DNA of 64,000 bases, from NCBI GenBank assembly GCA_031213475.1, contig JARUPZ010000027.1, forward strand, positions 5,836,132 through 5,900,131. The letters run 5' to 3'. This DNA is from Nereocystis luetkeana. Taxonomy: Eukaryota; Sar; Phaeophyceae; Laminariales; Laminariaceae. The position numbers were made by a program, and so were the translations under genes. The stretch's first letter is position 1, and each line of letters starts with the position of its first letter. Shown piece after piece: positions 21,686-61,500 of this stretch. Under the pieces are notes generated by a model, which saw only the letters and a program-made list of their open reading frames with translations, had not been told where the DNA came from and ran no database searches.

Positions 21686-24672
21686 TGAGAAATTAGTCAG
21701 ACAAGGTGGAAACGAGGAGAAGACTCCGACGTATTTAGTGCATGTACCCCCCTTCCCGGCGCACTTGACGGCAGAGGAGGGGCAGTACCGTGAGTGCTGC
21801 TTGAGGCTCGAGGCCGTTGGCTGCTGCCTGCCTGTCTTTTGCTGTTTTAGTTTGGCGCGAGAGATGGGGGGTGGCGCGGGGTTGCTGTGATTCCTCGCAG
21901 GTCATAATCCCCGTTTTTGGAGTGTTTCTTCACCCATAACGAGTACAAAAACGTGCCGGCCCTAGTAAGGGCATACCTGGTAGCATTTGCGATTCCGGAG
22001 AATACCGACCTCGGAATGGTTGGCTCCGAGGTATGGGATTCGGGCAGGGGGGTTGCCTTCGTGCGGCCCGTCAAAGCGAATGTCATGCGTTGCTACTGTG
22101 TCTTGTACATGGTGTGTTGCTGCGCCTGAGCTGCCGATACCCAAAGCTTATGCTCGTACTGTAAACTGGAAATCACTGGTATGTGGTGGGTTGGGAGCTC
22201 CCGTTTATAGAAGACCCCAGGCAAGCTTAGGGAATTAACACTATTGGTACTGGTATCCCAACGATTTTGGGTTGACGAGCCCGCTCAGTCAGCAATGTTC
22301 TGGACTAAAAGTTGTGCGTCTGTCGTACCACGCGTCTCTGTACAGTGTTTGTACTGTAGAAACATCTTCATTGATCCTGCAGGATCTATGGCTCCCACCT
22401 GGCAACATGAGCTACTGTAGATCCTACTGGTGCAAAATATATTCAGGGAAATGCCTACCCTGAAATCTCTGGATCACGGAAGTCGGAATCGATCATCTCT
22501 CCGAGGTGTGGACGGCATGTATGTAGGTATGCTACAGACCGTGGTCAAGAGGTCGGCGGCGCAGCAGCACGAAACCGCTGAAAGGCATGCGGGCTGGGCG
22601 CCGCAATCCATGGCGGTATTGCCGGCGCGATAAATAGTCCAGGGCTGAGCTGTGCCGACCAACCTCGAGAGGCGACTATTAATATTAAGATTCTTACACG
22701 TACTTGAGCCTTTCTTTTTCGGTTCCCGTGATGATATTATTCGGCGATGTTGTGTGGAACGCCGCTGCTCTCTCGTGATTTCCTTTGACGTACGCTCTTC
22801 CTGCCAATCTCCTGGGTTTCGAACCTGTCGGTGCGATCACACCAGGGATTGTTTTGCGCTTCCACCCCTATCCAATGTTTCATTTGCAGCCTTCTCAACC
22901 ATGGTCCCAAAGCGGAGCAAACCGTCCGTCATGCCCCGAAAAATTGAACCCATGCTCTCCCTTCACCTTACCCAAACTTATATTTCCTCGATCTATCAAC
23001 CCGCCCCCCCCCCTCTCTTGTCACCGCCTGAATACAATCTCGATCCATGCGTATCCCCCACTTTTTTCATGGCACCCGCCGGAAACAGAGAAGACCACTC
23101 CAACCTACAACGCTGTACGGAGCAGATTGTTTTTTATTGTCCAGATCACTGACATACATACCTCCTCATACTGGTGAACTACTATATACCCCCGGGCTCA
23201 ATTAGCATGACGACACCCGTCAAAACCCGACGCAGAAGTCGTCTAAGAATAAAACAAACAAATAGTCCCCCCCGAAACACGTCGATGACGAATAGCGACC
23301 ACATGATGTCTATCGCTGGCGCTGAAGGCGCGTCTAAATAGGCATCGCGGCGCGTCTAAAGCTTGCACGTCTCAGAGGCGTAATTTCTAGCGCATGAAGA
23401 GTATATAGCGTGAAGCGAGAGCTGTTGGGTCGCGGGGTGGGGTGCGCAGATCTTTCTGGATGGCGAACGTTCTTGAAGCCGCATACCCCCAGCGACGTTG
23501 GCACCACCCGCGGGCCCTGGGGGGCGCACGCACGGTTTTCATTGCCACAAAGCATTGGAGGCATCGTCCATCCTCGTACTCTGCATACACATATACAATG
23601 CAAAGAAAGATACAGAAACCGAGCGCCCGCCCCAGCAGAGAGACTTGCGCTTCGTAACGCGATGAAAACAAAACTGAGAACGTGAGATGCACGAATACAC
23701 TACACAGTATTACGATGTAAAAAACGTAAAAAATAAACAAAGACGGGCGCAATAAGCATTTGAGTATCTCACTCGTTGCCCCTTTTGCCGTCAAAAGTCA
23801 ACTAAATGTTCAAAGGAAGAGCTGTCTGTGAGATGATACCACTATCAACATACATAGCATACATCAACCAAGCCGGGCGAGGTCCGAAGCAGATACATAC
23901 GATTTCCACCAGTTGTGGTGCGTCCACGAACGCCTCCCATGACTCACTAGTGTCCTACGCCCTCTGATGTCTTGGTTATAAATCCCGAAAAATCCCAAAC
24001 GCCCTCCCTTCGCCGCCAAAACTATCACACATTTTTCATCACACTTTTTCGAGGGGGAAACGGAAAAAAGTCGAACCAGAAACACCACAAAATGGCCGAA
24101 TGGCGGCAAGTACGTATATACGGACGGTCGTTCCCTACCACGACTCGTCGGCACAACGCGTCGGAGCGTTCAACATCACGAAACACGCACCTCCTCCTTG
24201 TTTTTGCCCCGAGGCTATGTAAAAATCCACAAATAACGCATGTAAAGAGCCGTTCCAACTACTGTAAAATACAAAAAATAAATAAAATGGTAAATCTAAT
24301 GTAACCGCGATGCTACTTGTAGTGGCTACTAAAAGAAAATCACGAAACTAATGACTTCGCCAAGGGACGCGGGAGGCAGGGTGGGGTGGACGCGGCGAGG
24401 GGGGGGGGGGGGGAGGGACTTCGGCTGTTTTTCCGTTATTTCTCTACTACGTTTGCCGGTCCCCCTCGTCCCTACTCTGAGGAGCAGTATGCAAGGTTCG
24501 GCAGGAACTAGGAACAAAAACAGTACTTCAGGCAGAGCCGCTTCGTAAAATATCAGCAGCGTTCTGCGCTTCAGTATTTCTCGGGTTGCGAGTTCAGACT
24601 GCAGCTTGTTCGGGCAGCAACAAGTGCGGCGCTTACACAGAAACTCTCATGAAAGAGGCCGAAGTCGGCAAC
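21686..24672. other. Convergent intergenic region between POLR3F and the kinase
   Basis: Holds the 3' ends of two convergent genes. No open frame shows family features. There is a TACCTGGTA word near 21976 and a poly-G run near 24390-24412. Polyadenylation sites could not be placed. Confidence 0.55.
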
Positions 24673-33600: not shown

Positions 33601-36600
33601 CTAGCATCTTCGATACAGCACAAAGTATAAACACACTTTACATAGGAGCCAATCCGGCTGTCAAGTTTCGTGGCCTTCATACTGTTCATATTGCATAAGT
33701 CGACAGCTTTGGCTGTTTTCGTTCCTGCTGGAACGTGCCTATGGTCGAAGCCTACATAAAGAGTCTACACTGTGGGAAAGGACAATTTGCGGTTCTGTGG
33801 CGTCGTGTGAACATATGCTGGGTGACGTGATGTCTATTGCTATACCTGGTAAATAATGCCGCATTTGACGCGGGGGAAACGGGAGGAGGACGTACTGCAA
33901 CCCCGCAGCTTGAAACCATAACAGTTTGAGGCATTCGTTTTGATTTGGAGCTGAGGTGCCCTCGAAACTACTTGTGCACTACCATGCATCATAACGAGCG
34001 CGCGGGTTAGGCCTCGCACGGTTTCCTAGGAGTATTTCTTGAACGCAGCACAACGCAAAAAGCAGAGAGGAAGCCGCGAAAGGAGGCGTACAACAACAGC
34101 AACAGCACCCTTTCTCTGACCCTACAGAATAACAACAAGAACAGCAGCGGCAGCAGCATAGGAATAGCAGCAGTAGCAGCGGTAGCAGTGACAGAGGCAC
34201 AGCAGCAACCAGCCTCGATTTTTTCATGCTGATCCGTGTTCTAGAAGAAGAAATAAGACATGATGTATCAATCGTGTGTGTTCGAGTCGGGGGTGTATCT
34301 CATTTGTACGCACGACACGAGCGTCAACTTTTACTTGACTTCAGCAGTGCTAGACAAAAACTACTTGATTTAAGAGCAGTCACCTGACATGCACGTCGAG
34401 GCGAGATGATTCAAGGTTGTGACAATCGACCTCCGATATCGTGAACCAAATTACCAGCAGCAGCAGCAGTAGCAACAGCGGCAGTAGCCTCTGCTCTGCG
34501 TTTTTGGCTGTGTCGTGTGTGGCGTTAAGTGCCCACCACACCTCTCTCGGCGACCCGGTCTCGACATTCGGGTAGTCCAATCTATCAGTACGACTTCTCC
34601 CAACTCGGAAACGCTAGGCTGCTGCTACTGTGTGTGTTTTTGTATGCGTTTTTAGGGACGTTTTGTACGATCTCAATCTCCAACACTCGGGTGATAAGCT
34701 ATTGCTACTGGCGATCCGATCTCGACCTCCACACTCCGGTTGTCCAACCTATCAGTAAGACTTCTGCAGGATAGAAAACACTACCGGGGACACGAGGTAA
34801 AAATCCCCGTCCAAGCGACGCAACAAGAAATACGACGAAGGCCCACGCTCCCACAGCTCCACACGAGGCGAACCTCAGCTTGTGCGGCACATTTCTGGTG
34901 GCGGGCTTTGATCTTGACGGCGTCATAGGGGAAGGGCGACGTTGCGATTATAACCCTAGATGGCTTCAGTGGCTGCTGTGCGCCTTTTCTACGGGTGATC
35001 TCAAAACTTGCAATTCACGTATCATGCGAGGTACGACTCCAGATGGAAACGCAAAGACCGTGTGGTCTTCATATTTACATCTCAATGTTTCTGACATTTC
35101 CGTCCAGAGGGGTGACGTACAGCTGGCCAGGTGGCATTGATAGATCGAGTGGGGTTGCAGGCACAAGGCGCCCCACGAGGTGGGAACTGGGACACGCGGC
35201 TGGCGCATGCAGTCGGCCTGTGTGTCGGCTCTCGGTACTTTTTGGTGTAAAGACGTAGCGTACAACGTTGAAAATATCGCGTGAGTCAAGCTTGAGACCG
35301 ATCGTGCTCAAAATTTTCAGGTTCTGGTTGAAGAGGTTTCTCTCAAGTGTATTTGCGTTATAACACAGGACTGTACTTCAACATTCGCTACGTAGTGTTT
35401 CGCTTTGCTGGCGGTGGAGAACCAAGTAGCAAAATCTTGGGAGTCAAGTACCCGTCTGTACAGCTGACAGATGTGTATTATCCTGTGGTATTATACATGC
35501 GTAGTACGTACCAGGGACGTACCTGGTGCCCAAAATCTTGTACCAATACCCGGTAGCTCGTACAGACAGTATGCAAGTAAGTGCAAGCGACCCTTCCTTT
35601 TGTTGCGTGCGGAAGGGGTCCTTCTCGTAATCTTATTCGTGATTTGAGATACGGGGCAACTTAAGATCGATGTGCATGTCTCTCTGTCTGCATCCCCCCC
35701 CCTGAACTAGTGCGCGGACAGCTATCGCGACTCGCGACTCGCACGAGCGACCTTCGTGCCTGAGATAACGAAACTGCCTGATGAGCGGCGGGCGGCCTTC
35801 TGCAAGGGAGGGAGCCTCGTCACATCTACCTGAGAGTTTATGAATGATGTTCATCGAGAGAAGGCTGATCCTGACAAGGGGATGTCATGTACCCCGCTCT
35901 CGCAAGGTTTCGTAGTACCAACTTTGGTTGGTCACCTGTCACGCATGCCGGAGGGATGAGCGACCCTCCTCGCGATCCTGGCGATATTGAGGTAATAAAA
36001 CCTCCCCGAGAACGGCGGCCCTGCTATGATATTCCTGGTACCTGGTACCTGATGTATACGTTTGATATGATCCGTGGAGCTACTGGTATCGACAAGAGAG
36101 CGGTTGATGATCTCGTCAAGGAAGCAAGTGTATCCACAGCTCGCGCGAAACACCTCAGGAAGAACAACGAACGAGAGAGCCTGGGGCACAACTGAACACA
36201 GTCGGAGGATGTCGCCCATGGTTTCTGGATCGTGTTGCCTCCCTTCAGCAGTGGAATAAATGGTCGCAGTCCCTCTCTTTCATACGCCCTTTATAGCGTC
36301 GATCTGGGGCTGGTGCCTCCGGTCACCTGGCGTGAGACTTCCCCTCGTTCTGGTAGTGCTGAGCATGCACCACAGAAAAAGGCGGCGAGCGATACAGCGC
36401 CACCTGCTAGACTACTCAGTCAGCGCTGACTGAGTGGTCTAGCAGGCGGTGCTATATAGTGAACAAGATATATGTTTTAGAGTTCGTGGAATCTCGTCAA
36501 CTTACAGGAACAGTGATCTCCAGGGCCTCTCCTCGCCAAAACGCTACTGGTGTCTAGAGGCAAACTACAGTGTCAAAACCATTCGTTTTGTCTCCAGCAC

Positions 36601-38974
36601 GCACGCTCGAAAACAACACAATACGAATTCGCCGAGATTTGAACTCACGACACATCCTTTGCTTTATAGCACTACCTGCTAGACAACTCAGTCAGCGCCG
36701 ACCGAGTGGTCTGTTCGAAATATTCAGGAAGTATTACATACAAAAGAAGTACCTTTGGGCTCGATACGGCCTCCCGCCGAAAACATCCTCCGGGGTTGAT
36801 CAAGCGGCTGTGTTTTTCCTTCAGAGTCCCACTCCCTGGTCGTGCGCTTTTTTACTCAAGTGGTTCACTCCACGTTCGACTCTCTGGTCGAGTGTTCTTT
36901 TATGGTGGTTCTCTCCACCTGACTTCCCTTTTTCTACCCACGGCAGAAAAAGCGGAAATACGACGTCTGGCGGGACTCGAACCCCGGACTTCTTTTGTCC
37001 GAAACATGAAGGTCAAATCACTGAGCGACTCAGTCAGCTGTTCGAAATATTAAGGTTAAATGTAATTCAGTGGGTTAACTTTCATATTTCGAACAGTAGA
37101 AGTCCGGGGTTCGAGTCTCGCCAGACGACGTATTTACGCTTTTTCTGCCGTGAATAGAAAACGGGAAATCAAGTGGAGAGGACCACAACAGAAAAGCACT
37201 CGACCAGAGAGTCGAACGCGGAGTGAATCACTTGAGTAAAAGAACGCGCGACTAGGGAGGGGGGCCATGTGAAGAAAAAAACAGACACTGGCTAGGGGCC
37301 TGATCAACCTCGGAGAATGTTGTCGGCTGGAGGCCGTCTCGAGCCCAAAGGGACTTCTTTTGTTCGAAATATAAATGTTAAACCACTGAGCTACTCAATC
37401 AGCGCGTTGACTTTTATTTTTCGAACAGAAGAAGTCCCGGGTTTGGCCCCCGCCAGACGTCGTATTTACGCTTTTCCTGCCGTGGGCAGAAAAAGGGAAA
37501 TCAAGTGAAGAGCTACACGATAACAAAACACTCGACCACAGAGTCGAAAGTGGAGTGAACCGCTTGTGTAAAAGAGCGCACGACTAGGGAGGGAGGCCAT
37601 ACGAAGGAAAAACCAGGCGCTGATTAGGGGCCTGATCAACCCCAGAGGGTGTTATTTATCGGCGGAAGGCCGTATCGAGCCCGAAGGTACTTCTTTTGTT
37701 CGAAATACAAAGGTTAGACCACTGAGCTACCAAGTCAGCGCTGACTGGGTAGCTCAGCGGTTTAACCTAATATTACGAGCATTGGCTATGAATAGTGATC
37801 ACTGATGCGAAGTCGACGACGTTTGAGCTCACGACACATCATTTGTCATTTGTTGATTATGTAGCACTACCTCTTTTCGATCGTGTGCGCTGGAGACAAT
37901 ACGATTGAATATGAAAGTGTGCCTCTAGACACCAGTATCGTTTGGCGAGGGGAGGGCCCTGGAGATCGCTGTTCCTGTAAGTCGACAAGATTCCACGAAC
38001 TCTAAAAGACATAGTTTGTTGATGGTATAGCACTACCTGCTTGACCACTCAGTCAGCGCTGACTGAGCCAAATCTCGTCGAATTCGTAATTTGTTACCAG
38101 GTATTTTCGAGCGTGCGCGCTGGAGACAATGCGAATGAATATGATAGTGTGCCTCTAGACACAATTAGCGTATGGCGAGGGGAGCGCCCCGGAGATCAGT
38201 GTTACTATTAATAAGTCGACGAGATTCTACGAACTCGAAAACATATATTTTGTTGATTACGGGTATACCTGGTATAGGTACAGCACTATCTGCTAGACCA
38301 TTCAGTCAGCAGCTGCTAGCTGACTGCTGCTGACTGAGTGGTCCACGATAGCAGGTAGTGCTTACAATAATCAACAGCAATTGCACCAGCTGCGAAATAC
38401 ACAGGCTGAACGCTAAACCCCGCTACATGTACTGTACGAATGATGATCATACGTACGTACGCATATACGTGCCTGCTGGGTATATATATACCTGGTACGA
38501 AGTACTACTGAGAGGCCAAAACACAAAAAGCCTGCATCGTACTGTAGCTCGCTCGCTCGCTCCGTTGCCTTCGAAGAGCAGTCATGGACCAAACGGGTGC
38601 GTATTTACCTTCAAGTCTGCACTTCCCGCCCCACTTCTCTGGAACTGCTTGACGGCGATGTTCTCGCCCGAGTCAGCCACCACCCCGCGATACACGATCC
38701 CGTGCGCTCCCCGCCCCAGCTCCTCGCACTTGGTCCACTCCCCCACCCCGTTCTCGTAGGATCCCGGACCCACCGACGTCGATGTGCTTTTCAGCCTCGT
38801 AGACATACTCACGGCGGCGTTCGCCACCGTCACGGTGGTAGCGCTGGTCCCCCTATTGCTGTCGCTGGCGTAGGAGGTAGAGGGGTGCTGTGCTCCGATG
38901 ACGAGGGTGGCGCCGGCGCTTTCGTCGACGCTTGCAGGCATCGAAGCTGCTGCTGCTGCTGCTGTGCGTATCAT
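24673..38974 (-). CDS. MAPKKK (STE11/MEKK-type) protein kinase with long polyQ tail, nine exons
   Basis: Exons, 5' to 3' on the minus strand: 38974-38609, 33298-33224, 32374-32204, 31746-31454, 31024-30884, 29861-28567, 27597-27344, 26608-26484 and 25696-24673. Every junction keeps phase, giving 1247 residues. Kinase domain about 81-340: glycine loop GRGAHGIVYRG (87), catalytic Lys109, helix-C Glu127, RHPNVVRFLG, EYLDGGSL, HRDIKGANVLL (Asp202), DFG (Asp220), GTPKWMAPE (238-246), DVWSVGCTVVEMLTGKVPW and INHPFL. This motif set is typical of MAPKKKs, which phosphorylate MAPKKs. Residues 350-1247 are low complexity: Gly/Ser/Arg stretches, about 16 Gln, RKR, then 7 Gln (28734-28814), Gly/Ser repeats and Ala runs. 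The start is the first ATG of the exon (38974); an upstream exon cannot be excluded. If the donor at 30883 is not used, a stop at 30880-30882 would end the protein just after the kinase domain. Confidence 0.83.
26840..27290. repeat. Direct duplication, unit about 217 bases
   Basis: The segment from CGACGTGTCCGGTAGCCTCG (26851) recurs from CGACGTGTCTGGTTGCCTCG (27068), extending through TCACACAAGAAAA in both copies. It lies in an intron of the kinase gene. Identity is roughly 85-90% by eye. Confidence 0.85.
27778..27872. mobile_element. TTAA-type hairpin MITE, copy 2 (diverged ends)
   Basis: Inner arms GCAGTCCCGTTTTGGGGACA and the complementary CCAAAATGGGACTGC are intact. Outer ends GCCTTTCAG and CTGAAAGGGC are altered relative to the CCCTTTTAG type. 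Confidence 0.8.
28734..28814. repeat. CAG/CTG trinucleotide tract encoding polyglutamine
   Basis: Read on the minus strand, this is in the frame of the kinase tail exon and gives two Gln runs split by Arg-Lys-Arg. It is nearly pure, so its length probably varies between individuals (inference). Confidence 0.9.
30160..30560 (-). mobile_element. 3' end of a non-LTR (LINE-like) retrotransposon
   Basis: On the minus strand, a frame from about 30560 reads MCPCGKSRENRTHIIGECEM, then YKEERDVLKEEL. This CxC..H....C cysteine-histidine motif with the downstream Y..ER is typical of the end of LINE reverse-transcriptase ORFs. Shortly after comes a second segment (AILGDRWWPQAPKQEG) in another frame, which suggests a frameshift. 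The copy ends in AACAAATGAGTACG plus 12 C. It lies in the fifth kinase intron and is 5'-truncated. Confidence 0.75.
30611..30692. repeat. (GA)n microsatellite with adjoining poly-G
   Basis: About 25 GA units followed by a GGAGG and poly-G run, inside a kinase intron next to the LINE fragment. Confidence 0.92.
32870..32932. repeat. CAC trinucleotide tract
   Basis: About 14 CAC units followed by degenerate CACTAC units, in a kinase intron. Not in a coding exon. Confidence 0.9.
36395..36456. repeat. Long palindrome, about 30-base arms
   Basis: CACCTGCTAGACTACTCAGT and its near complement ACTGAGTGGTCTAGCAGGCG meet at a CAGCGCTG centre with no spacer. The arms are also the terminal repeats of the elements to the right. 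Confidence 0.9.
36427..36714 (-). mobile_element. TIR/tRNA-like element, copy 1
   Basis: About 285 bases bounded by inverted ends CTGACTGAGTGGTCTAGCAG and CTGCTAGACAACTCAGTCAG. On the minus strand it contains GAGTTCAAATCTCG, which resembles a tRNA B box. Related copies at about 37850-38057 and 38058-38315. Confidence 0.7.
36716..37750. mobile_element. Three tRNA-headed SINE copies, about 340 bases each
   Basis: Copies at about 36716-37050 (inverted), 37085-37410 and 37415-37750. They share GACGTCGTATTTACGC, a glycine-like B box (GGGGTTCGAGTCCCGCC, minus strand near 36965) and an A-box-like TAGCTCAGTGGTT. The T-arm pairing is broken and spacing is abnormal, so I read them as SINE heads, not functional tRNAs. 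Confidence 0.7.
37850..38057 (+). mobile_element. TIR/tRNA-like element, copy 2 (without micro-insertions)
   Basis: Same family as 36427-36714. It includes GCGCTGGAGACAATACGA, CCTGTAAGTCGACAAGATTC and GTTGATGGTATAGCACTACC. It serves as the uninterrupted reference for copy 3. Confidence 0.75.
38058..38362 (+). mobile_element. TIR/tRNA-like element, copy 3 with micro-insertions
   Basis: Homologous to copy 2, but with TTACCAGGTATTTTCG at about 38091, CTATTAATAAGTCGAC at about 38214 and GGTATACCTGGTATAGG at about 38265 where siblings lack the extra bases. It ends in another palindrome (38316-38362). Confidence 0.75.
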
Positions 38975-43393: not shown

Positions 43394-43490
43394 TTAACCC
43401 TTTTAGGACTGCTCTCCCGTGTTGGGGGAAAACTACCTGGAATTGGAGTGGTTTACCCCCAAAACGGGACTGCGATTCTAAAAGAGCTAA
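43394..43490. mobile_element. TTAA-type hairpin MITE, copy 3
   Basis: TTAACCCTTTTAGGACTGCT at the left and GACTGCGATTCTAAAAGAGC at the right, with complementary inner arms around GGGGGAAAACTACC and GGTTTACCCCC. Confidence 0.85.
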
Positions 43491-46400
43491 TCCAATATCG
43501 TTGAAATGCCTCTACGAGAAAAATCTCAGCGCTTCTATTCGTGTGATATAGGTCCTGGGGTAAGTTCATCGGGCGCACTTTCGGTTTTGCAAAAATCAGC
43601 GTTAAAATTTTGGGTGATGTTAAGATCTCATGTATGGAGCCTCATAAATAGTAGGTGCACCTGTACTACCGTAGCACGCATAAAAATAAAATCTTCCCAG
43701 ATATATGGAAGAAAACCATCAATATTTACTGACAGTACATTGTCTCGTTCTCGTTATTATTAATTATTATTATGGTTGCCTTCCGACAATATAGTGCAGA
43801 CGCCGTTCCGATATAAACCGAGTATCCTTCCGTAAATCAGCAGTATGTCACTCATACGCTTCTCTGCGAGCCGTTTCCCAATTCATTCCCCGCATTATTT
43901 CAATTTAGCTACCGGTATACCTGGTAGCATATAATATCCTATTCCTTATCAACGTTCAATCCTCAGGTCATTGACCGCATCCCTCCAGCTTCTTCCTCCC
44001 TTCCCCTGGCGGCCTGGCGGCCCCTCAGGGCTAGTTTATACCTACGCACTCGGCGCGAAATCGCGACCTGGGTGGTCACCGAGATGATCTGGAAGAGGCG
44101 TTCTTTGCAGACGCCTTTCCGTGCTAGGGGCGATCCGTCCGTCCCTCCAATAATCTTGCCGCTACCTGATCAATCAGATCGCTGCCTTCCTTTCCGAGGC
44201 GCCCAAAGCTTTCCACCGCGAGAGTGGCGAGTTTATAGCTGCGCTGTGGTCGAAGGTAATAGAAAGGCAACACAATATTCACGTTGTATACCAGGTACCA
44301 TGTATGCATCATCATCAGCTGTGAGCATTCGGAACGGTTTGGGTGTTGACGAAGAATTTGGTTGGGTTGGGGGTTGGGTTGGGCATCCTCTGCTCTGTGT
44401 GCCACACAATAGTAATCCCAACCCACGAGAAGACCCACTTGCTGTGGGAAAAGTGGCCAAAATGACATTTTTAACGTGAGAATTATCGCGCTCTGGGTAA
44501 CTCGGGGGTTGGCTATTAATAGCAAACGGAGCAACTTCTGATTCACCTGTTGAAGCAATCAGCTCCTCGTGTTCGTCGGTTTCAAAGATTTTTGTACCCC
44601 AACCATAATTCGAACATCGCAAACACTCAATTCTCTCGGAATGATATCGAGCTGGGCGTAAATATAGATAGGTCGCCCAGACCTGATCTGAACACCCCCT
44701 TTAGTACTTACTTCACCCACGCTTTTGGTGACAAACTACTTGGAGACTGCAGTATTAATAGTGGCTGCAACGAATACAAATTTAACACAACTACCATTCA
44801 AATGCATATTTATATATTTATTGATATGAGCTACGTACAAATGAAACACACCAGTGATGAAAGGATGGTGACGTGAGGGCTATACACGATGTACAACGAT
44901 CGCTTGACGCTGCCGCTTTAGGATGAGGGATGATGGGCCTGAATCAACGTTCAAGTGTACAAAATCCCTTCGGCACTACGAGTATGGGCACCCACAATTT
45001 TCTGGGGGGGGGAAACGATTTTAATTTATATTACTGCCGTAGTAGCAAAACTTGATATAAAAAAACGTGCCAGCTACGAGAACATTTTACGCTGCAGTCA
45101 TCAGCAAATAAAAAACGAAACGCACCAGCCACACCGTCCAATACCCTCTAAGAATAGTAACCGAGGTGCCTACGGTATAGCATCATACTAGGGTATAAAA
45201 TATCAGCTGTAAATTATGTACGAACACAAATAAGACTTGTAGCACCAGCCGATGGGCTTCTTATTCTATGAACTTCACTTGCAGAATTGGCATTAATAAC
45301 TGTCAACGATCAAAACGATGATCGCAGATCGATCGGGGCCTCGCCAACTGTTGAATAACTACTTGCGGAATCGGCCTGTCATCGCAGACAAGAAACAAAT
45401 CAGGAAAACAAATGTTCGAATATTAAGAAAGGAAAAGAAAAGGCCGAGGGAATCTTCTATTATCAATAGTATTCACTACCCAGTACACAATACTGTACCG
45501 TTCTGTCCGGAAATGTATGGAACCCTTTGGTATCAACATGTTTGGGCATCAACACGAAATACTGAAGGATCTTTTTCATTTCCGCACAGAGCGGTAAGCT
45601 CTATAGCCGCAGAGTGTTATTTAGCTGCCTCGCCACATCAAAGTGAAGGGAATGCCGTTCGCTCTCGACCGAATGCTCCGCAGCACGACGTTCAGCTGGC
45701 AGCGCAAGCGATCGCAAAAAAAAACAAAACACGACGTTCAGTTGGCAGCGCAACCGACCGAAAAAAAAACAGGGTTCCTTGCCACGCAAGCGATGACGCT
45801 GACCGTCAGCTGCCATAATTACAGGTAGGTGCACATGCAACACCCACAGGTGCAGCGAGCAAGCGACCTTCCCCCCTGAATGTGTTTGGTATAAATAGAG
45901 CTGTATTTGGACGGCACAACATGCAACAACAGAAAAAAAAAAAAAAAAAAACAGACGACGACGACGACGTGGTTACTCCGTACGTGCGCCTCTAAAGCAC
46001 TTTTGCCTATTCCGAACCTGCTGGACAAGGGCAGACGCACAACGTGTTAGAAGAAATATTTACCTACGTACGCAGCAGCAACGGCAGCAACAGCAACATT
46101 GCAATAATACCGGGAAGATAGGGATACAGGCTGGAAAGCAATAAATACTACCTAGAGAGGTATATTACTGCTGTGTCACAGAAGCCTACTGCCGCACCAC
46201 AGTAGCTTCTACGAACAGGGCGACAGAGCACACCAATCTGTTGAGTGGCAGCGGTGGTGGCGGTGGGGGTGCGGTGACACTGTTGTAACGCACAGCAGCA
46301 GCGTAGCCACAACAACTGAACAGCGCCATTGGTACCATCGCCGGCCCGCTAAAACAGTACCTCTTGACACCTACCGGCAAGAGAGCTATGATACGACGTA

Positions 46401-50300: not shown

Positions 50301-53300
50301 GGTAATGACGGGGCGGAGACATGGGGCAGGGGGCGAGGGGGGAGTTACGCGACTGGGGGACCATTCGTGTATGCACAACACCAACAGACATATTGAGGAC
50401 CGGTTGGCTTCTTTGTCTGTCCTTATATATGTGCCAGGGGTCGTCGTCGCCTCAATGTTGTCCTAATACTGTAGTACGGGGGGCCATAGTAAATACCAGG
50501 TAGGACCTATGGTACACACGAACACCATATATATTTACCTATTTTTACGAACAACATTTGGTCCTATTTACTACCAGGTACCAGGTACCTGGTATGGTCC
50601 CCCGTAATAGTATACCTGGTAAATAGCACATTCCAAAGCGACCCCCTGGTTCAATGCTGTCCTGTACGCGCGTGTTACATGATACTTGCTGAGGTCGGGC
50701 CCGGTCATAGATGCATACTCGCAGGCACAAATCAACGTGTAGTCCCGCTGCTCTACTGAAGTAAACATCAAATCCCAGGTGGCGCACGTAACCTTTGCGC
50801 TGGGCGCCAGATTCACGGAGCTGAGCAAAGAACCGCCAGGATTTGGTCAACTCGACCGTGCTACCTTCCGAGCAGGATTAACGGCGCGCTCTGGCCACTA
50901 CAAGAAATACCTAATCGATCCCGCAGCTGCCCGCTGCAGCTTGTCGGTTAGGGCCCATCTTATTGAGGACTTTATTCTTTCAATATTAATTGATTTTTGT
51001 TTTCTAGATTAATTTGCACCTGATTGGCCGAAGAGTTAATCACCAAGCAGCTATTCTCAAGGCGGATTATTTTGTTTTCATTTGAGTGAAAAATCTTTTG
51101 TTTTTTTTTTCGTGTGATAATTTACTTCAATTTGGAATTCGGGAGTTGATCAGCCTTGATGTAGCATTATCACGGTGGGTCAACACCCCCGGTGGAGTCT
51201 GGGGATGATTCTTGGCAGCTTCGGTGACCACGATCGAGCCGATAAAACGCGAACCTCAACGAGAGGCGACCTGAGCAATAGCCGCGCCCACGCCCACTGA
51301 CCAAAGCACATGGTACCCCTGCAGTGGCGCCTAAAAACTAATCGTGGCGGCCGCAAGCCCAATTTTTCGGCCTGCTCAAGCGGCCAACAATGACGAAAAC
51401 CGAGCAAGCGACCAAAAAAACGGAGGGTACGCTCGAGACCTCGATAGCTGCATCACCGCTGCTGTTCCGCACGTGGCGCTTGAGGGCTCCCTCCGCCCAT
51501 CCAAGACACCCTAAGAGTGATAGCTTCCTACTGCCCCACCAAAAAGAAAAAGAGGCTGGCGGCGGCGCGCACGCGACAACGCAAACCTTCGCTCTCCTCT
51601 ACGCTCGTCGCTGTTTGTCGGCTGGGTGTTGTGTGATGCGGTGCGTTAGTCCAGGTTATTCCGAATATTTTTTTGTTTGACAAACAATACGCCGTTCCCC
51701 GATAGGATACAAACACGTTTTTTTGTCGAATTCAAACTAAACTTCATTGATAATATTTTTTAACTCCCAAACAACGAAGTTTAGCGTCCCCCGTTAAGAT
51801 GGGCCCTAGGGGCCGTGCGTATCGCACCACAGGCTGCGAAGGTCGTTTTTTTCACATTTTTGTTTCTTGATTTCCAACAAAACGCAAAAAAAAAAAAAAG
51901 TCGAAATTTAGCAGGGTTCCAACAAACCTGACAGCTTAAATTTCCAAAAAATCCATTTTGCCGGAATTTACTTGAAAATAAAAGAGGTGCAATTTTTCGA
52001 CAAAATTTGGTTCGATAAGCACGGCCAATAATCTACGTACTAGCCTACTACTCAGTCAGCGCTGACATTAACCCTTTTAGGGCAAATTGCAGTCCTGTTC
52101 TGGGGAAAAACCAGTCGAATTATAAATAGTTTGTCTCCAAAACAAGACTGTGGTCCTAGAAGGGTTAAACTGCTGACTGAGTGCGATATTAATAGTAGGT
52201 TATCCCTCACGCAACAATGCCGCTGTTTGTGGTGCCGTGTGTGCTATCTGTAAGTTATTACATGTTTGTACCAACTACATCAGCAGCTTCCACGCCTTTT
52301 CCTTGGAGAGAGAAGGCCGAGCGAGGAACGGCAAGGAAAGCTAAACCTCCACACTGCTGTCGGCACAACGGCGGTGGGGTGGCATCGTTGCTCTGTCCCT
52401 ACTCACAGGCTCTGGGGCACAAACAAAAGCAGAATCGTCTGGAAAGCGCCGGTGGACTGCTGTTGTTCCATGATACTCGTACTACTTACGATAATATGGA
52501 AAAACAAAGAGATGGCAAAAGACAAGATTTCACGAACACGGGAAATAAGGCACAACACCGGTACTGCTTGTTACAGCAGTATTCAATTTGTCGAATGATG
52601 ATGTCGCATTGCTATAGTCCACCATACTGAAATCCTGCTGGTGGTCACAAAACAGGCTTTACTAACAAAAATGTATCTCGATGGGGGAAAACAGGCGAGT
52701 ACGAAATAGCCCGCACGGCAGGAATCATACCCGTCCGTAAGGGAAACGAAACTAACGAGCTACGTACCAGGTACTACAGAAGGGGTATATCCATGGTATT
52801 ATACCAAGACTCGACTAAAGAAAAAAGAAAAAAGAAAAACAAGAGGGTTGAAAAGAAAAAACAGAAAGAAAGAAACAACGGGAGAATGAAAGAAAGCAAA
52901 CAAAGCAAAACATGCGCTCAGGGCGCATGCCGAGTCCCGAGGACAAGGTTGCTGTTTTCTGGTGCGATCAGTCCTCCTATGATATATCCAGTTGATGGAC
53001 TAACATGAGGACGTCACGAGATGACCAGACGGAAGGCAAGAAGACAAGGAGGGGGTAGAGGTAGGGAGCCATTACACCAACAAACAAAAACGAGCACTCC
53101 CACGAATGCCCAGTTGGTTATTTGTCGAAGCAATACTTGTACCTGGTACCTGGTATATGTATATCTGTTGTCTTGTCTGCTGCTGTATGGTAGCCTGTAC
53201 GCTGGTGTGCATCAAGAACAGTATGCCCTTCTCGGCGTTGCTCCGTTTTCGGAACAGCCAAAGAGTCGGGTGTCTGTTTTCGGAAGGTCGATTGCTTTGT

Positions 53301-55460
53301 AAAACGGACGTTGAAAGAAAAAAACACATACAATGCAGCCTAATGGTCGTCTCGGTCTCGCGCACGTTTCGATCGAAAGCGCAAGATCACAGTGTGTGAC
53401 AAGGGAGTGCTTCGAGGCGTGCCTTTGGTATCATACATACCTGGTACTTGGTGTGTGGTATATGTATCATACTTTCACCTGTGCTTGTACAGCAGTAGTA
53501 CGTGTACGAACCAATTTCTCCTAACCAAGTTCTAACAACAGAGCGAAAGAAAAAAATGCACCAACCGAGTGTGCGAAACAGGTGTTCGGGAGTACCGGAC
53601 AGCAGAACATGTAGCAGAACGCAGTACCAGGGACTATTAATAGTACTAAAACATACCAGGTAGTATTATATTATACCAGGCATCACGCCTTCGACACAAT
53701 GCGCTGGCATAACACCAGTAACCGACCGCTTGCGGTGCGGTGGTTCTTGACAACTTGCGTGATCTGATCAGTAAAAATTGCAACAACAAAAATGCTCCAC
53801 CATGCGAATACAAATAAATTTACAAAAGTTCAAAAATTCAAAAATGAACTTCAATTTTGTACTGTATTTTGACGTTGTTCTTCGAAGGTCAGCACCGGTA
53901 GAAGATTGACTAACCTTCCGCTTCGGCCTCCCTTGTACTCGGGAGACTTGCTCAATATCTCCACCACTTGCCGTAGCGACTCCAGGAACAGCTCACCGTG
54001 CCCGAAAAATTTAACGCCATTAAGGATTACCTGCGTACGGGGTGGGGCATGAGATAATATACACTTTACTACTTGTAGCACAAGAACGCCAAACGAAACG
54101 AGAAAACAAAGAAAAACGCGAAAAGCCGCAAGAAAACGATCTCGAATGTTGTTGTGGCTGGCACCTGCACCGACAGAGCTCTGTGACGACTCGTACAAAC
54201 ACCAGTACAAAAACGAGTACCTGGTATCTATTATCATATGGTCAGCCGCCGCCGCCGCCGCCGCCGCCGCAGCAGCAGCAGCAGATGGATGATTATGTAC
54301 TCGTACTATGCACGGCGTATGTTAACATATACGCCGCGCGGCTTTCGCTCGAACGGCGAATCAACACCCGGATACCCCCCCCTCGACACCGACCGAGGCT
54401 CGACCAAGGGGAGCTTTGGCGGGGTAACGGGGGCAGCAGAGCCTGTGCGAGCGGGATGAATAGTGGAAGGAATAATATTTAATGCTTGACGCTACTGACG
54501 ACACTGGCACCGCGCACACGGCACCCCGTGCACACGAAAGAAGACAGTGAGAACCCATGCCGATAAAACCACACGACCACACGGCCGTCGTCGTTCGTCT
54601 ACTCTTGCACCACCGGTACTGGTGCTGCTGCTGCTAATGGTACGTGGTCCGCGCAGAATTTCCTGCCAGGTGCGGAACATCATTTCATGTTTTTTTTTTT
54701 GTAGGTGGGGCGATGGCGATGACGGATGATGCCGGTGGATAATTGGATTTGTTTTACGTGAAAAAACAAAACTCGAACGAAACACAACCCGCAACCAACG
54801 TGTGCGTACGCTGCTGCTCGTAACGAGTGGCGCGAGCGCAACGATGGTAGCGTTGTCAACGCGGCTCGAAGATGATTTGCGAGGGAGGGAGGGAGCAGAT
54901 GGCGCCGCCTTGTGCACTAATGTTTGTGTGTGCCGTACGTCCTGCTTGATGTCATTGCCCCCCGCTTGTGTCGTTTCGCGCCAACTCGACTTGTTCGCGA
55001 AAGACGCAAAGACCCATATTTCGGGGAGAATTAAGCCGTGCGCGGCGCGCTCTCTGCGCTGAACCCATTACGCGAGCACCTCGACGCATCGGTCCAAGTG
55101 GTCGGGGGGGTCAGCGAAGTCGTGAGGGGCGGACTTCAATAGGGTCGGCACGCTCAAAGCTGAAGCTGAACTCACATTCTCTCGAAGCAAGTCGTTGATG
55201 GCTTGCTTGGACTCGACATTGCTGTCGTTCAAGGGTATGCAACTGAAGTGTTCCGGAAAGTTCTGAAACGCGGTCAGCACGGAGTCGCGATTGCCCTCCC
55301 GGCAGAGGGTCTGTACCGTATCGATGACCTCTTCGTTCATGTGGACCTCCAGCCAGTCTTCCTTCGTGCTCGGGCCGTGCGTCAATAGTGCTGCCCTCTG
55401 CCAAAATGACAAAATGATCTGAATTGAAAAAAAAGCAAGGGTTTCTGCAACTGGAAGCAT
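47377..55460 (-). CDS. Unrecognised conserved-looking protein, six exons
   Basis: Exons on the minus strand: 55460-55176, 54030-53915, 50820-50616, 50224-50087, 49453-49361 and 47712-47377 (stop at 47377-47379). Phases 0, 2, 0, 0, 0 agree across all junctions, giving 390 residues. I do not recognise the family. The exons have ordinary globular composition: EEVIDTVQTLCREGNRDSVL, GVKFFGHGELFLESLRQVVE, CATWDLMFTSVEQRDYTLIC, SVVACANYYGLFSLDEIEAE and VVEKTDYLTGRNVRYLRVDT. The last 70 residues are Pro/Gly/Ser-rich. It may be helical-repeat-like in its first half (impression only). The fifth exon uses a GC donor (CAG|GCGAGT). The third exon's donor lies in a TACCAGGTA word. The ATG at 55460 is the first in the exon, but a CAG acceptor at about 55403 also allows this to be an internal exon. 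Confidence 0.62.
47825..47905 (-). mobile_element. LINE 3' end fragment
   Basis: Minus-strand GGCGAGCAACAAATGACTAC followed by GCCCTCCCCCC matches the last 70-80 bases of the LINE fragment at 30160-30560. Only the 3' tip remains. Confidence 0.7.
49836..49873. repeat. CAG microsatellite
   Basis: Eight to nine CAG units then CACCAGCAGCAAGCAGCAAC, inside an intron of the unknown gene. Confidence 0.9.
50475..50607. mobile_element. MITE, GGGGG(A/G)CCATAG type, copy 2, carrying micro-insertions
   Basis: Ends TACGGGGGGCCATAGTAAAT and TATGGTCCCCCGTAA. Compared with the copy at 60823-60927 it has extra CCAGGTA after ATA at about 50500 and extra TACCAGGTACCAGGTACCTGG before TATGG at about 50574. It abuts the donor of an exon of the unknown gene. 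Confidence 0.82.
50821..53914 (-). other. 3.1 kb intron of the unknown gene
   Basis: AT-rich tracts (51000-51150, 51700-52010), the nested hairpins at 52048-52185 and several TACCWGGTA words (52765, 53141, 53437, 53655). No supported exon. Confidence 0.55.
52048..52185. mobile_element. TTAA-type hairpin MITE nested inside a CTCAGTCAGCGCTGAC palindrome
   Basis: The MITE (52068-52168, TTAA at each end) interrupts a second hairpin whose arms are CTACTCAGTCAGCGCTGAC on the left and CTGCTGACTGAGTG on the right. The intact form of that palindrome is at 36395-36456. Confidence 0.85.
54241..54285. repeat. GCC then CAG trinucleotide tract
   Basis: Nine GCC units followed by five CAG units in the first intron of the unknown gene. 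Confidence 0.9.
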
Positions 55461-55594: not shown

Positions 55595-58500
55595 ATGACT
55601 CATAGAGTTCGTCCAGCACCACCATTGCCGGTGACAGTACTGCGAGGGCATTCGTCCGGTGTCCAAGCTGTTTGTTTCCTTGGCGAAGATGTGCTGCTGT
55701 CCGGGTAAGACTTACTACTGCTGTGAGTACGGAGTAGGTTGAGGAAGCTTTTTTTTCTTGTACGTCCAATTATACCCCAGGCAGGCAGGTCTTGCGACAC
55801 CTGACCGACAACTGCCGACACGGAGAGAAGAGAGCATTTGAGGGTATGATATCCGAACAACTTTTTACGCGTGCGTAAATATGACGTTGTTTCTGTTTCG
55901 AGACCGAGCACCACAACCTCAGCATTAGACATCATGCGGAATGCGGATACTCTCGTTTGAGGCGTGGTGCCACCTGTTCCGCCTCCTTGTCTGTCGATCT
56001 TGTAGGTCAGTGTTCGGAGTCCAGAGCGGTCACCGTACGATGTTCGAAGCGCTCCGTATGATGGGCTGACTGATAGACCTTGGTGAAAACAACCTCTTGG
56101 TTGATCCTCGTACAGCAGCAGTACATACTCGTATACTTTTGTACCTCCACGAAGTGCAAAGCAAGGTAAGAACACCAGTAAGATGTATCTGGTAGGATTT
56201 CTCCGATGTGATCGTTGCTGGAGATAATTTCATCTTTTCCTCGTACGAGTACTCGTACACACTTCCCTCGTTCGATATGTTCTCAATCCAATTTCCAACC
56301 TCGCCAGTCAGTACGACTGAGAAATACGAGTACGGCAAGTGCCTTTACTCGTGAACTCTGTCTGTCTCGGCCGAATATTTGCGAGCAAGAGCGGTACTGC
56401 GTACTCCCAAGTAAAACGGAAGGAGGGTACAATACTCGTACGTACCTCTGACCTGCCATCCGAATCGCTGTAAAGACAACACCAAGCGGGCAGCAGTACG
56501 AGACTACCACGTAGCTGGTGTGTCTCTGGCAGTATCAACATCATACGTAAATTTGTATGATCACGTATCTAATGTCATTCATGTCACTGTTTCTCTTACT
56601 TATAGTCTGTTTCTATATTCATAGTCTGTTTCTACTAATTCGTGCTGATACCTGGAGTACGAGTGTACGAGGTACAAGAGTATTACCTGCGCTATGCATG
56701 TGTACCGTACTGCTGTTGTGCCTATGCCGCTCTGGAGTCCAGCCTCTTTCCGTCAGAAATGCACATATTCACCCCTCCCGGACCCCGCGCGCTATTGGTG
56801 GCTGAACGCGTATTTTGGTCGCCTGTCTGCCCAAGTTTCCGTGCCTCTGTGCCGCTATCGGCTATATCGGTCTCCCCCGCCTCGGCTGTCTCAGGAGGTC
56901 GAATATCGTAGCGTCGTGTAAATACGTACCCCAGGCACAAAGTATGTCTTCCCCACAGGGGCACAAAGTAGTGTAGATTCGGTTGTGTTTTCACGTAAAT
57001 CTGTAGGAGGGGCGCAGGTGAAGATACGGCGTTCGTATACATCTATCTTGAGGGAGATTGAGGTAAACGTGAAGATTATTATTTTTCGGGGGGGAAGATT
57101 ACCGGTATGTACACTCGTATATCAACCTCACGGAATGTGCTTGCAAGTACGGTGAGTACGAGTATCCCCCACAACGTGCGTCAACGAGCGGAGGGAGTGC
57201 TGGAACCTTTTATTAATAATAGTTTTTTTTTCAATGCTTTTTTTAGCACCAAGGTACACATTTCTCCTGGTCATGATACGTAGCCGATCGGAATTTCAAA
57301 CACCTTTGAAACGCTCATTTTTCCGCGAAGGTCTCCCTTGGCTGGATTTTATTTTTCCGTTTTTTCTGCTTCTCTAGTCTCTGACAAAATAATATTGCAA
57401 TTGAGTGGGATATATATTTTTCACAACATGTAGGCCATTTCCCATCGAAGGGTTTTGAGAACCGAAAACGAACGCTTTCGGGCCGCATGTAAAACGATTA
57501 TCAACCTTGTGGATACGCAACTGGTGATTTTTCTGGCATTTTTTTTCAGATATGAGTTTCGGGACGGCATCCAACCGCAAATAAATGGGGGTCCATTTTC
57601 GGTCAGCATCCGCGTCCGAAACTGGTGGCTGATTGGTCATGGGTTTCAACACATCGTGGGAGGCAACAAGCGTCCATGCCGAAAACAGCAGTACCGAGGG
57701 GGCGCATCTATCTGCCAAGCAAGCAACAGGATCTGTGCTGCTTGCAGTGCCCCGCTACCCACCCCCGCGTGCCTCACAGGCATCACCACGAGCCAATGGG
57801 ATCGGATTGTGACGGTGTCGACTACGAGAGCCTTGCCACTCTAGTAGCTGCGATCTTGGCTCGTCGAGGACGAGGATAGTGTAGTCACCGTTGGGATGAT
57901 AAATGTGATGAACGAGAGCAACACAGACAGCGAGCAGGAAAATACGACGCCGAAAGACAACCAGAGTAGTGTGCAGCGTACGCGTCATCTTTCCCTCGTC
58001 ACGACTACCAGGAACCATGCTTCCGCGTGGGCTGAGATGCTCCGGTGAGACGAACCCCACGTATTTTAGGGACGAAGCGAAACTCTCTCGGTGGCGCTTT
58101 CGCGTACATCACGCTGCAGCAGCTGTTTTCTCCCGTTGTACGTTGTTGAATACCTGGTATATGTGGCAACTTTATTTTCTGTCCAAATTCAATCTGAAAA
58201 AATCTGGGGCACGGTAAGGTTGTCGGCCAATTCTGCGTGTCTATTTTTGAGGGTCGATTCAATCATCAAGTTGTCGGTTCTTAAAAACCTTTCATAAGAG
58301 ATCACCAAATTTGAACGACTCTCGGATTTTCCAAGACCTAATGTTCTGATGTAATAGAAAACTAAAAATGACGAAAAAAGGGGCAAAACCCCGCCGCGGG
58401 GGCGTGTGGAAAAATTCAATCGGAATAAAAATATCCACCCAACAGATACTAAAATAAAGGGCGCCAAACGAATCCTTTCGTCGATCTGCAGACCTGACAT

Positions 58501-61500
58501 TTTTTCTTTTTATGATTTGAGACGAAATTTCGCGATACATTACATGCGTGTTTTCGTGAAAATTAGATGATCATGGCCCTTGACAAGATGTCGATTTTGG
58601 AGGAGGCGAACAAAAAAACTGCCGTGCAAGATATGTCCGCCCACCCCTGGCGATCACGAATATGGTCGTCCTGTATTGCAATTCGTCGTATTTCGAAAGT
58701 TCTTCGCCGAAAACCGATTAGATAAATTCACGTGCAAGGACTGCATTCGTACCCGCAATGAAAGTTTTAATGGGGAATCGGAGTGCGTTGGAAGAGGGGA
58801 GGGAAGTGTGATCCCGGAGGGGTGGGGGACTCTTTTGTTGCTTGCCTTAGCCATTCGACCATTGACCACGCATCCTTTTCAAGATGGAACACCTTTCCTA
58901 CTCCTAATAGAGTCATACCAGTACCTGGTAAGGCCTAGTTTGGGTAGTAGGCGATCGGTTAATATCTCACCAGTATGTAGCCCAACAGATTAATTCCTTA
59001 GCAGGTGATACCGGGTTGGTGTGTATTTTATGGTGGATAAAAGACGGATAGATAACAGCGAAAGAGCACAACAACACAACAAGCTTGTGATACCGCCTGG
59101 TAGCACAGCAGCAGCAGTTGTTACATTCGACGAGCGCATCCATACATTTCTCGTAGAATGCAGAGCTCGTATGCTCGAGTAGTTTATACATGGCGCTCCA
59201 CTTCGCGGGCGGCTATTCGCCGCCCGCTACGCTCGCTCGAGGGAGTAAGATAGAACAATGTGTCAAGGAGACAGGATGTTCATGACTTGGCGAATGGGCC
59301 ACTTGCGAATGCAAAGAGCTAAATGGCGTAGGAGAAGGCATGCCGGGCTCTGCATGTTTTTATCTTAAATTCAGTACCGAATGGAATATCTCGCTCAGAT
59401 TTGCCTGCTTTTCCAATCTGACTCGAGTTCTGAAGATCAATTTCTTGACTTTTTTTTACTATTTGAAAAAAAAAAAGTTAAAATTCGTGTGGGATTTTTC
59501 GTCTTCGATTTGTTGTCAGCTGAGCTGAGCTGGGTGTGATTTCGAAAAAAAAAGGAAAAAAAAAGAAAAGCCAAGCCTTTTATATTGACTTCAGTGTATG
59601 GGGGGTCATCTCGCTATTTATTTACTGCTTTTCGATCCTGACTCGAGTTATGAAGATCCATATCCTGATTTTTTTACGCTTTGATACGGTATAAAATAAC
59701 CTGATATTAGTGCTGGATTTTTTCGTCTTGGATTTAGTGTAAGCTGAACTAAACTGAGTGTGATTTTGGAAAAAGCGAAAAAATGTTCCCTAAAGTAATC
59801 GACGAAGGACTCCCGGAAGGTTCTCCGAGAGGTGGAGTTAGGCAGGCGTGTACCTGACGAGAGCTCCGAGGGCGCAGCAAGGTCTTTTAACCAACTGCGC
59901 CCAGGACAAATTACTTGCTGAGATAAATGGAATAATGCGTATTTTGGTACTGTGTCGCTTCTCGGCTGCACTCGATATTTTTTTTGCCGTTTTGCTGGAC
60001 TTTGCGGGGTTGTCTTAAACTTTTGACGTTCCGAGTTTTCGGGTCGAGGTTTTTTTACTCGGCATGCTTTAGCGCTTCCTTTTTTTTTCCTGCGCACGGG
60101 TCGGGGATGGTTTTTGCGTATGTCATCCTGCCGACCCCCCCGCTCAGTGTCGGGGCTGGTCTGGGCAATCGAGCCACTCATTTGTGGCACAGGACACGTT
60201 TCCGGAGTTTTTTGTCTGGGTTTAGGTGGTTTATGGCGTATTCCGTGTTGTTTTCCTTCTTCGTCTTGCCGTTCCCCCCCCGCTCGGGAGCCGGGAGCGA
60301 TCTGGATAAATGGACTACCCATACTGGGGCACAGGTCCGCCTCTCTTTTTGTGCTAACCTTTCGCTTTTCCGGGGAAACGTTCTTGCCCCACCCCCCTTG
60401 CGGGTGGTATGGCGATGGCTTTCGTTGACGATTTATTCCTGCCCCTTACGGCCAGGCCTTTCTTTCTTTTTTTTTTGGCGTCCCTTGTCGGCTTCGAAAC
60501 CTTGCCATTCAGAGGTGTGGGAGTGGGTGTTGAGGAGCCGCATCTTTGACTCATGTTCTAGCTCGTGGAATCGGGATTTTCAAGAATTCCCCAAATTTCT
60601 GCATATAAGGCTAATCAGAGTGGGCTAGTGTTATGGTATTGCTTCGAATAAGACCGAAAGGCCGGCAATTGCCTGGGTTCAGGTATTGGGATCGTACTTG
60701 TCGTACTTGGGAGGCGTATCTTAGATGGAAAACCAGGGGTTTTCCTAGCGAGGCACGAGCCTTGATCTCAGGCTCTCGTCATCGTTCTCGAAAGGAATAA
60801 CGCTACTATTCTACTACCTCTATTACGGGGGGCCATAGTTAATAGGACCTATGGTGTACATAAAAACCTATATATTCAACCATTTTTCCTAACAACATTT
60901 GGTCCTATTAACTATGGTCCCCCGTTATAAGCATTCAACACACGTGAGTACCAACGAGTACCTGCTCAATAGGCAAACCTAACAAGGGATACAAAGTGTC
61001 CCGGCCTTGAACTTAACATGTGCTCTACACCTTCGAAGGGATAGGTTTGCTCGATAAGTTTGTCGACACATTAAATACCGCCCGGTCTTTCCAGGCTCAC
61101 TGCACACTAACTCGAGCCTTCGTGTGTCAGTCAAAGTTTGACCCATGATGTTGCCCTTGAGACCTCTACGTACGATTAATCTCCTGCAGGAGAGCCCACG
61201 TACCAGAGGCATTCATTTTTCGTAGCAATTTATCTTCGTATTGCGGCGTGTTGCACAAAAAACTCCACGTACCAAGTAAATCAGCTCTCTGCAATCTTTC
61301 GCTCCGTCATCGTTTATGTCATAGGTCGCAGGATGGCGTTGTCAAGGTGTGGGACCTAGAGCGGCGGAGGGTCTGCGCTGAGTTCGAAGCGACCAGCCAC
61401 GGCATGGGCGTCCTGAGGCTTGACCGCCTAGGCCGGAATAGAGTCGTGAGGTGAGGTGAAAAGCAACATACGTTCATGTGTTTCCCTTGTGATATATGGT

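Follow-up and report, generated by a model that had tools for sequence, protein, structure and literature searches.

The excision footprints of Tc1/mariner transposons have 2-4 bases in the account excerpted from PMC7913693, and that of Sleeping Beauty is given in the cited passage of PMC3432063 as TAC(A/T)GTA. In the Triticeae, Stowaway elements, which are miniature inverted-repeat transposable elements (MITEs) of Tc1/mariner type, leave fragments of their ends between TAs and can re-insert beside an old footprint, according to the relevant section of PMC1925063. Footprints in rice are often complex (excerpt of PMC4423477), and those of Hsmar2, in the cited part of PMC3770610, are less uniform than the word described here. 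The present analysis concerns the word TACCWGGTA (W = A or T) in a window of 64,000 nucleotides from the brown alga Nereocystis luetkeana (contig JARUPZ010000027.1, positions 5,836,132 to 5,900,131 of the forward strand; coordinates below are those of the window), and in the 465,085,209-base assembly to which this window belongs. The word marks a TA-duplicating micro-insertion that is real, genome-wide and specific. The reading preferred here, to which a probability of roughly one half (0.52) is assigned, is that TACCWGGTA is the excision footprint of a TA-inserting, TA-duplicating cut-and-paste transposon of Tc1/mariner superfamily type.

The window contains 29 copies of TACCWGGTA, compared with 0.29 expected from shuffled sequence, and these form 25 arrays, with A at the central position in 12 units and T in 17. 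Under Markov models, 0.47, 0.59 and 1.25 copies are expected at orders 2, 3 and 4, respectively, and 4.7 and 12.4 at orders 5 and 6, in which most of the word is already built in. When words with fewer than 5 copies, a 1-3-base period or low complexity are set aside, it heads the window's words of 6-12 bases, and the runner-up among odd 9-base pseudo-palindromes has 7 copies. Across the assembly the word was counted 182,395 times, or once per 2.55 kb, compared with 1,744 occurrences of the reversed pattern. A 200-kb sample, made up of 20 stretches of 10 kb at fixed, non-random coordinates (18 lie 100-110 kb into a contig, the remaining two on C1), contributed a further 60 units. Taken together, window and sample hold 89 exact units in 79 arrays, with a central ratio near 1:1 (A in 48, T in 41), together with 128 one-mismatch words, where 56 were expected. 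Units are joined at 10 places among the 89, with W equal across the join in 6 cases and different in 4, which fits separate events. The targets are AT-rich: the 16 bases flanking the word contain 260 AT positions of 400 in the window (208 ± 11 around nearby TAs; 0 of 5000 draws as high) and 521 of 848 in the sample (449 ± 16; 0 of 2000 draws). No clear clustering of the window arrays was seen, their 4 gaps shorter than 150 bases being matched by 305 of 5000 random draws. Among the top matches in open-licence PubMed Central, nothing was found in print on a TACCWGGTA micro-insertion.

That the word arrives by insertion at a TA can be read from a small inverted-repeat element with ends CGGGGGRCCATAG (50472..50609), which carries four units and served as the empty-site reference. 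Its left arm holds one unit of 7 bases (50494..50502) and its right arm three head-to-tail units, 21 bases in all (50572..50594; W = A, A and T on the + strand). Two other copies (10310..10423 and 60817..60929) are empty at both sites in both arms, and at each site five of the six arms are thus empty. The first site has a single TA after CCA in these five arms and, in the remaining one, CCAGGTA-CCTGGTA-CCTGGTA (arm orientation) following the TA; the second reads AATA-GGAC or AATA-AGAC in five arms and has CCAGGTA added in one, each insertion duplicating the TA. Since the remaining arms are empty, the filled state is derived, as shown in this one repeat family. An earlier model-made annotation of the same letters, here called the sequence-only reading, had asked whether empty copies might be deletion derivatives, which is not so in this element; in line with its denial of slippage, the six-arm alignment reveals no seed copy in the siblings. 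In the genome as a whole, a first look gave 3,012 candidates for this inverted-repeat element, the 40 best being scored. A further unit, found by word count, lies immediately outside its right end (50613..50621). The element has no match in phages, and neither its end nor the CTCAGTCAG palindrome has a match in viral contigs.

When empty sites were constructed by script for the 25 window arrays, 5 arrays had a match across the junction and 20 had none. The constructed sites at 38095, 50494 and 50572 align without gaps at the junction to empty siblings, and the one at 38266 matches siblings lacking a whole composite insertion. The fifth match, at 10182, consists of 20 bases of TATTAATA words and is little informative.

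The units at 38095 and 38266 belong to the third copy of the repeat from which the sequence-only reading started (38058-38316), and in which it had claimed three alike TA-duplicating insertions. Both words are present there, TACCAGGTA at 38095..38103 and TACCTGGTA at 38266..38274, but the three differences are not of one kind. The first is a near-clean 7-base insertion relative to copy 1 in the alignment, although the empty site opposite it in copy 1 reads TTG, that is TG instead of TA, an exception to the single-TA rule; to the left of 38095, copy 2 is not homologous to copy 3. In the second, TACCTGGTA lies within a composite insertion of 19 bases and not of 7 (about 38258-38276, by alignment), copy 3 reading GATTACGGGTATACCTGGTATAGGTACAGCAC and copy 2 GATGGTATAGCAC. 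The third, reported as a change from CTGTAAGT to CTATTAATAAGT, did introduce an enriched word, but a different one, TATTAATA at 38206..38213, with 4 extra bases relative to both siblings plus a substitution.

Specificity was assessed over 276 kb (window and sample) at all TA-X-TA words, X being 3-8 bases, that were covered by a sibling repeat, and it was asked whether the sibling lacks X plus TA; the five word classes treated as enriched had been chosen by their enrichment in the window, prior to this test. An empty sibling was found at 6 of the 8 covered TACCWGGTA places, compared with 3 of 160 for the other TA-flanked 5-base words (Fisher 8e-8), the three exceptions being TACCAGCTA, TACGAAGTA and TACCTCGTA. 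Because L073 and L076, two of the six, share one insertion within a single repeat family, the CCWGG events amount to about 5 independent ones. For the other enriched cores the corresponding figures are 2 of 4 (TTAA), 1 of 4 (CCGG), 1 of 2 (CGAG) and 1 of 2 (CWG), which brings the enriched words together to 11 of 20 covered places, compared with 11 of 670 for the remaining TA-X-TA words; five of the latter 11 cases have 6-base cores, and three of these five come from a single variable stretch of the inverted-repeat element. An audit of insertions of 4-30 bases in window and sample (186 places) showed that the TA is duplicated at 10 of 20 seven-base places, 6 of them TACCWGGTA, which is the excess among repeat indels that the sequence-only reading had proposed to look for. 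The proportion is 5 of 19 at six-base places, one of these TA-flanked cases being a telomere repeat, and 0 of 39 at five-base places, and the four TA-flanked eight-base cases all belong to a single variable stretch of the inverted-repeat element. A few of the 186 places may be counted twice, L050 having been included and overlapping L058; L054, L055 and L057 were left out of the audits, L053 being taken to cover the first two and L057 adjoining L056. A narrower audit confined to the window found the TA duplicated at 3 of 10 insertion places (5-30 bases). The single-TA empty siblings and the specificity to enriched words support the process proposed in the sequence-only reading, namely insertion with duplication of the TA and a short palindrome left behind.

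The second enriched word, TATTAATA, occurs 12 times in the window, where 0.27 are expected, and 93,112 times in the genome, compared with 10,689 for the reversed pattern. In 264 kb, the core TTAA was counted 48 times (1.7 expected), TACGAGTA or its complement (core CGAG/CTCG) 45 times (8.3 expected), TACCGGTA (core CCGG) 18 times (3.8 expected), TACWGTA (core CWG) 86 times (34 expected) and TACGTA 121 times (69 expected); simple repeats such as TACTACTA and TATATATA, and the telomere word, are also raised. For each of the cores CWG, TTAA, CGAG and CCGG an empty sibling was seen at one place or more, and TACGAGTA at 12112..12119 is 6 bases longer at the TA than a sibling repeat at about 11343. 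The series CG, CWG, CCGG and CCWGG between TAs could represent shorter and longer joins of similar ends. The 25 TACWGTA sites of the window read TACTGTA in 21 cases and TACAGTA in 4 on the + strand, a strand bias that is unexpected because the two words are complements of each other. A family of inverted repeats of about 95 bases occurs at 12917-13012, 27779-27872, 43393-43490 and 52067-52168, the last copy having TTAA on both sides. As a source of TATTAATA, the repeat at 12917-13012 was rejected together with its relatives, the 52067 copy reading TTAA-CCC...GGG-TTAA, without TA-TTAA; by this structure that copy looks like a piggyBac-type element.

The excision footprint was among the mechanisms offered in the sequence-only reading, and is the one preferred here; a nano-element, also offered there, is a less likely possibility. 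An element with ends TA-CCWGG...CCWGG-TA would insert at a TA and would later be excised by its transposase through staggered cuts, such that the first bases of each end stay on the flanks. The overhangs would anneal (C:G, C:G, a like-base mismatch at W, G:C, G:C) and be joined, and repair of the central mismatch would give A or T, turning the TA into TACCAGGTA or TACCTGGTA. The new TAs could then be hit again, which would produce joined units whose W bases vary independently. If the ends began with CCAGG or CCTGG and the overhang had 5 bases, four of them paired, TACC(A/T)GGTA would result. What we infer is an element with such ends, the length of its overhangs and their annealing; two ends that each start with C would give a core starting with C and ending with G, and the layout of the core (C...G, with A 48 and T 41 at its centre) fits such a putative two-end origin. 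The ends of Mos1 begin with CCAGG; their 14-base and 10-base forms had no occurrence in the top literature matches.

A resident transposon family may provide a proof of principle for the footprint reading in the same genome. A genome search for DDE_1, presumably a marker of pogo-type elements, returned 28 matches, and nine of these loci were read. One of them (L085) is a 2,184-base DDE_1 element with inverted ends CAGTACCGGCC, TA on both sides and one stop in the DDE_1 match. Four of the nine (L085-L088, a related family) carry CAGTACCGG ends, of which L087 and L088 each show a single one preceded by TA, and L086 a single one preceded by TG. The Sleeping Beauty rule predicts for the L085 family a footprint of the form TACWGTA, which is one of the enriched words.

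Several observations weigh against an excision footprint. A search for inverted ends in the window, and one for inverted ends and facing CCWGG half-sites in about 279 kb of window and sample, revealed no element with CCWGG ends, and no large insertion in the repeat siblings has such ends; these searches took in stretches of 3-10 kb (none longer than 10 kb outside the window), ends of 13-14 bases in which 1-2 mismatches were allowed, and spacings of up to 5-10 kb. The candidate end CCAGGCGGATTA was rejected, being recurrent but internal to a repeat. DDE_3 (PF13358) has no match in the genome, four further DDE_1 loci (L081-L084, on C1, C35, C2 and C31, respectively) are without TA-flanked inverted ends in the 6.4 kb read, and L089 has none among the five best pairs listed. 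These searches having come back empty, some 180,000 scars stand without a known parent. In L081-L084 the DDE_1 open frames have 331-425 residues, and the loci are possibly domesticated transposases. The form of the word raises difficulties of its own, as the main core has 5 bases where 2-4 are usual (cores of 3 and 4 bases do occur in other enriched words), and TACCWGGTA is rather uniform, varying less than do the footprints of rice and Hsmar2. Furthermore, the TA is duplicated at only 24 of the 186 audited insertion places, and 2 of the 8 covered CCWGG places (L065 and L075) show gaps of other sizes. As to the accompanying words, TATAATA (55, with 24 expected) and TATCATA (56, with 25 expected) are raised about 2.3-fold in spite of cores without initial C and final G, TACWGTA is enriched only 2.5-fold with an empty sibling at one of two covered places, and the AT-rich flanks were found in the window for CCWGG only and not for CWG, TTAA or CGAG, so that the enriched words may not share one cause. 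It is on account of the missing CCWGG parent, the 5-base core and the uniformity of the word that the footprint is held at about one half, and that direct insertion retains a minor but appreciable share.

Direct insertion, the strongest of the alternatives and yet an unlikely one, supposes that a TA-specific enzyme, in the form of a domesticated transposase or of abortive transposition, inserts the 5-base core by way of 2-base staggered cuts, with no larger element at most sites. It would be a doubtful proposition that a fixed palindromic 7-mer has been written into TAs some 180,000 times without a larger intermediate, even though it would lead one to expect both the 182,395 copies, for which about 279 kb yielded no parent element, and the DDE_1 genes whose open frames are long and which lack TA-flanked inverted ends in their vicinity. 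An insert of 7 bases leaves no room for a transposase binding site, and the inverted ends long enough for a transposase that would characterise a MITE or nano-transposon are absent from it. We know of no enzyme that inserts a 5-base core of this sort. The cores CWG, TTAA, CGAG, CCGG, CCTCG and CTTCG moreover insert alike, a pattern that is easier to reconcile with several families of elements than with a single enzyme and its one oligonucleotide.

Templated or microhomology-mediated end joining at breaks in TA-rich places, in which repair itself would write the palindrome with no transposon involved, agrees with the AT-rich context and with the existence of several palindromic cores. Templating from the flanks should, however, give inserts that depend on the flanks, whereas the same 7 bases are found here in unlike flanks, and TA duplication is bound to length (10 of 20 seven-base places as against 0 of 39 five-base places), which makes this explanation improbable.

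Slippage of a tandem repeat has even less in its favour. It would treat the word as a heptamer microsatellite, for which the 10 joins among 89 units could be cited, as could arrays in bacterial metagenome-assembled genomes of several groups, where at least three joined TACCWGG heptamers occur at 40 places (L010-L049). These bacterial arrays include related heptamers (cores CCAAG, CCTAG and CCGAG) in register, fewer than one of them would be expected by arithmetic for even base composition, and the 287,551 bases of their loci contain 13 single words. In Nereocystis, however, the 89 units fall into 79 arrays and are mostly single, the siblings contain no seed copy, and W differs in 4 of the 10 joins, whereas a single W runs throughout 35 of the 40 bacterial arrays; slippage is accordingly judged very improbable. 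Two joined units are also matched by 9 stretches of viral contigs; one of these (L002) contains one additional site, and the other 8 contain none. Equally remote is the idea that the word hitch-hikes in abundant repeats or is a binding site kept by selection, since, although no other word is so over-represented in the window and a protein might in principle bind to it, 20 of the 25 window arrays have no junction match, three of the five matches are to empty siblings, and neither joined units nor TA duplication would be expected of a binding site.

The other units of the window were located by word count. Single ones lie at 9089..9097, 9124..9132, 12853..12861, 21974..21982, 33843..33851, 38489..38497, 44289..44297, 52765..52773, 53438..53446, 53654..53662, 54218..54226, 58151..58159, 61500..61508 and 63313..63321, and joined pairs at 9138..9153 (W = A, A) and 53140..53155 (W = T, T). 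The unit at 10182..10190 is flanked by two TATTAATA words, that at 36039..36047 has a one-mismatch unit on either side, and that at 43918..43926 adjoins TACCGGTA. A unit at 58922..58930 stands directly beyond the end of a repeat common to 30172-30267; the repeat shared by 30172 and 58816 stops before this unit and yields no empty site. Elsewhere in the window, large inverted repeats at 36828-37263 contain stretches that we take to be tRNA-like (GGCGGGACTCGAACCC); ARAGORN reported no tRNA in the window, and no Rfam family was found there. Exons matching Rpc34, a subunit of RNA polymerase III, and a protein kinase lie at 15718-20026 (+ strand) and 31453-32524 (- strand). Redundant contigs were considered as a second haplotype and rejected: a chromosome stretch and two small contigs (L078, L079 and L080) are identical over 6 kb, and the assembly thus holds redundant contigs.

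If the words are footprints, about 180,000 scars would constitute a fossil record of cut-and-paste activity, with no resident element yet found, and sequence analysis by itself could then address excision, target preference and repair outcome. As direct insertions they would testify to a mutational process for which, to our knowledge, there is no counterpart. Each scar adds 7 bases, and the process is consequently a steady source of small insertions; a rough clock of about 0.1 substitution per site, taken from the excess of one-mismatch words, gives approximately one scar per 300 substitutions.

Compared with the known systems, the bacterial (TACCWGG)n arrays have the same heptamer, but are tandem and mostly of one W. 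The resident DDE_1 family with CAGTACCGGCC ends (L085-L088) resembles the present case in being flanked by TA and in the enrichment of its expected word, TACWGTA, although its ends cannot give CCWGG. As far as the cited excerpts describe them, Tc1/mariner elements in general share the TA target and a short core and differ from the main word in core length, which is 5 bases here. Stowaway, in the section cited, leaves several footprints per locus, where a single main word prevails genome-wide in Nereocystis; the two agree in the short end fragments between duplicated TAs and in re-insertion by an old footprint. Sleeping Beauty, in the passage cited, has a core of 3 bases and a known parent, whereas the core here has 5, with 182,395 copies and no parent found; the two words are nevertheless alike in having TA on both sides, a core of the form C...G, and A or T at its centre.

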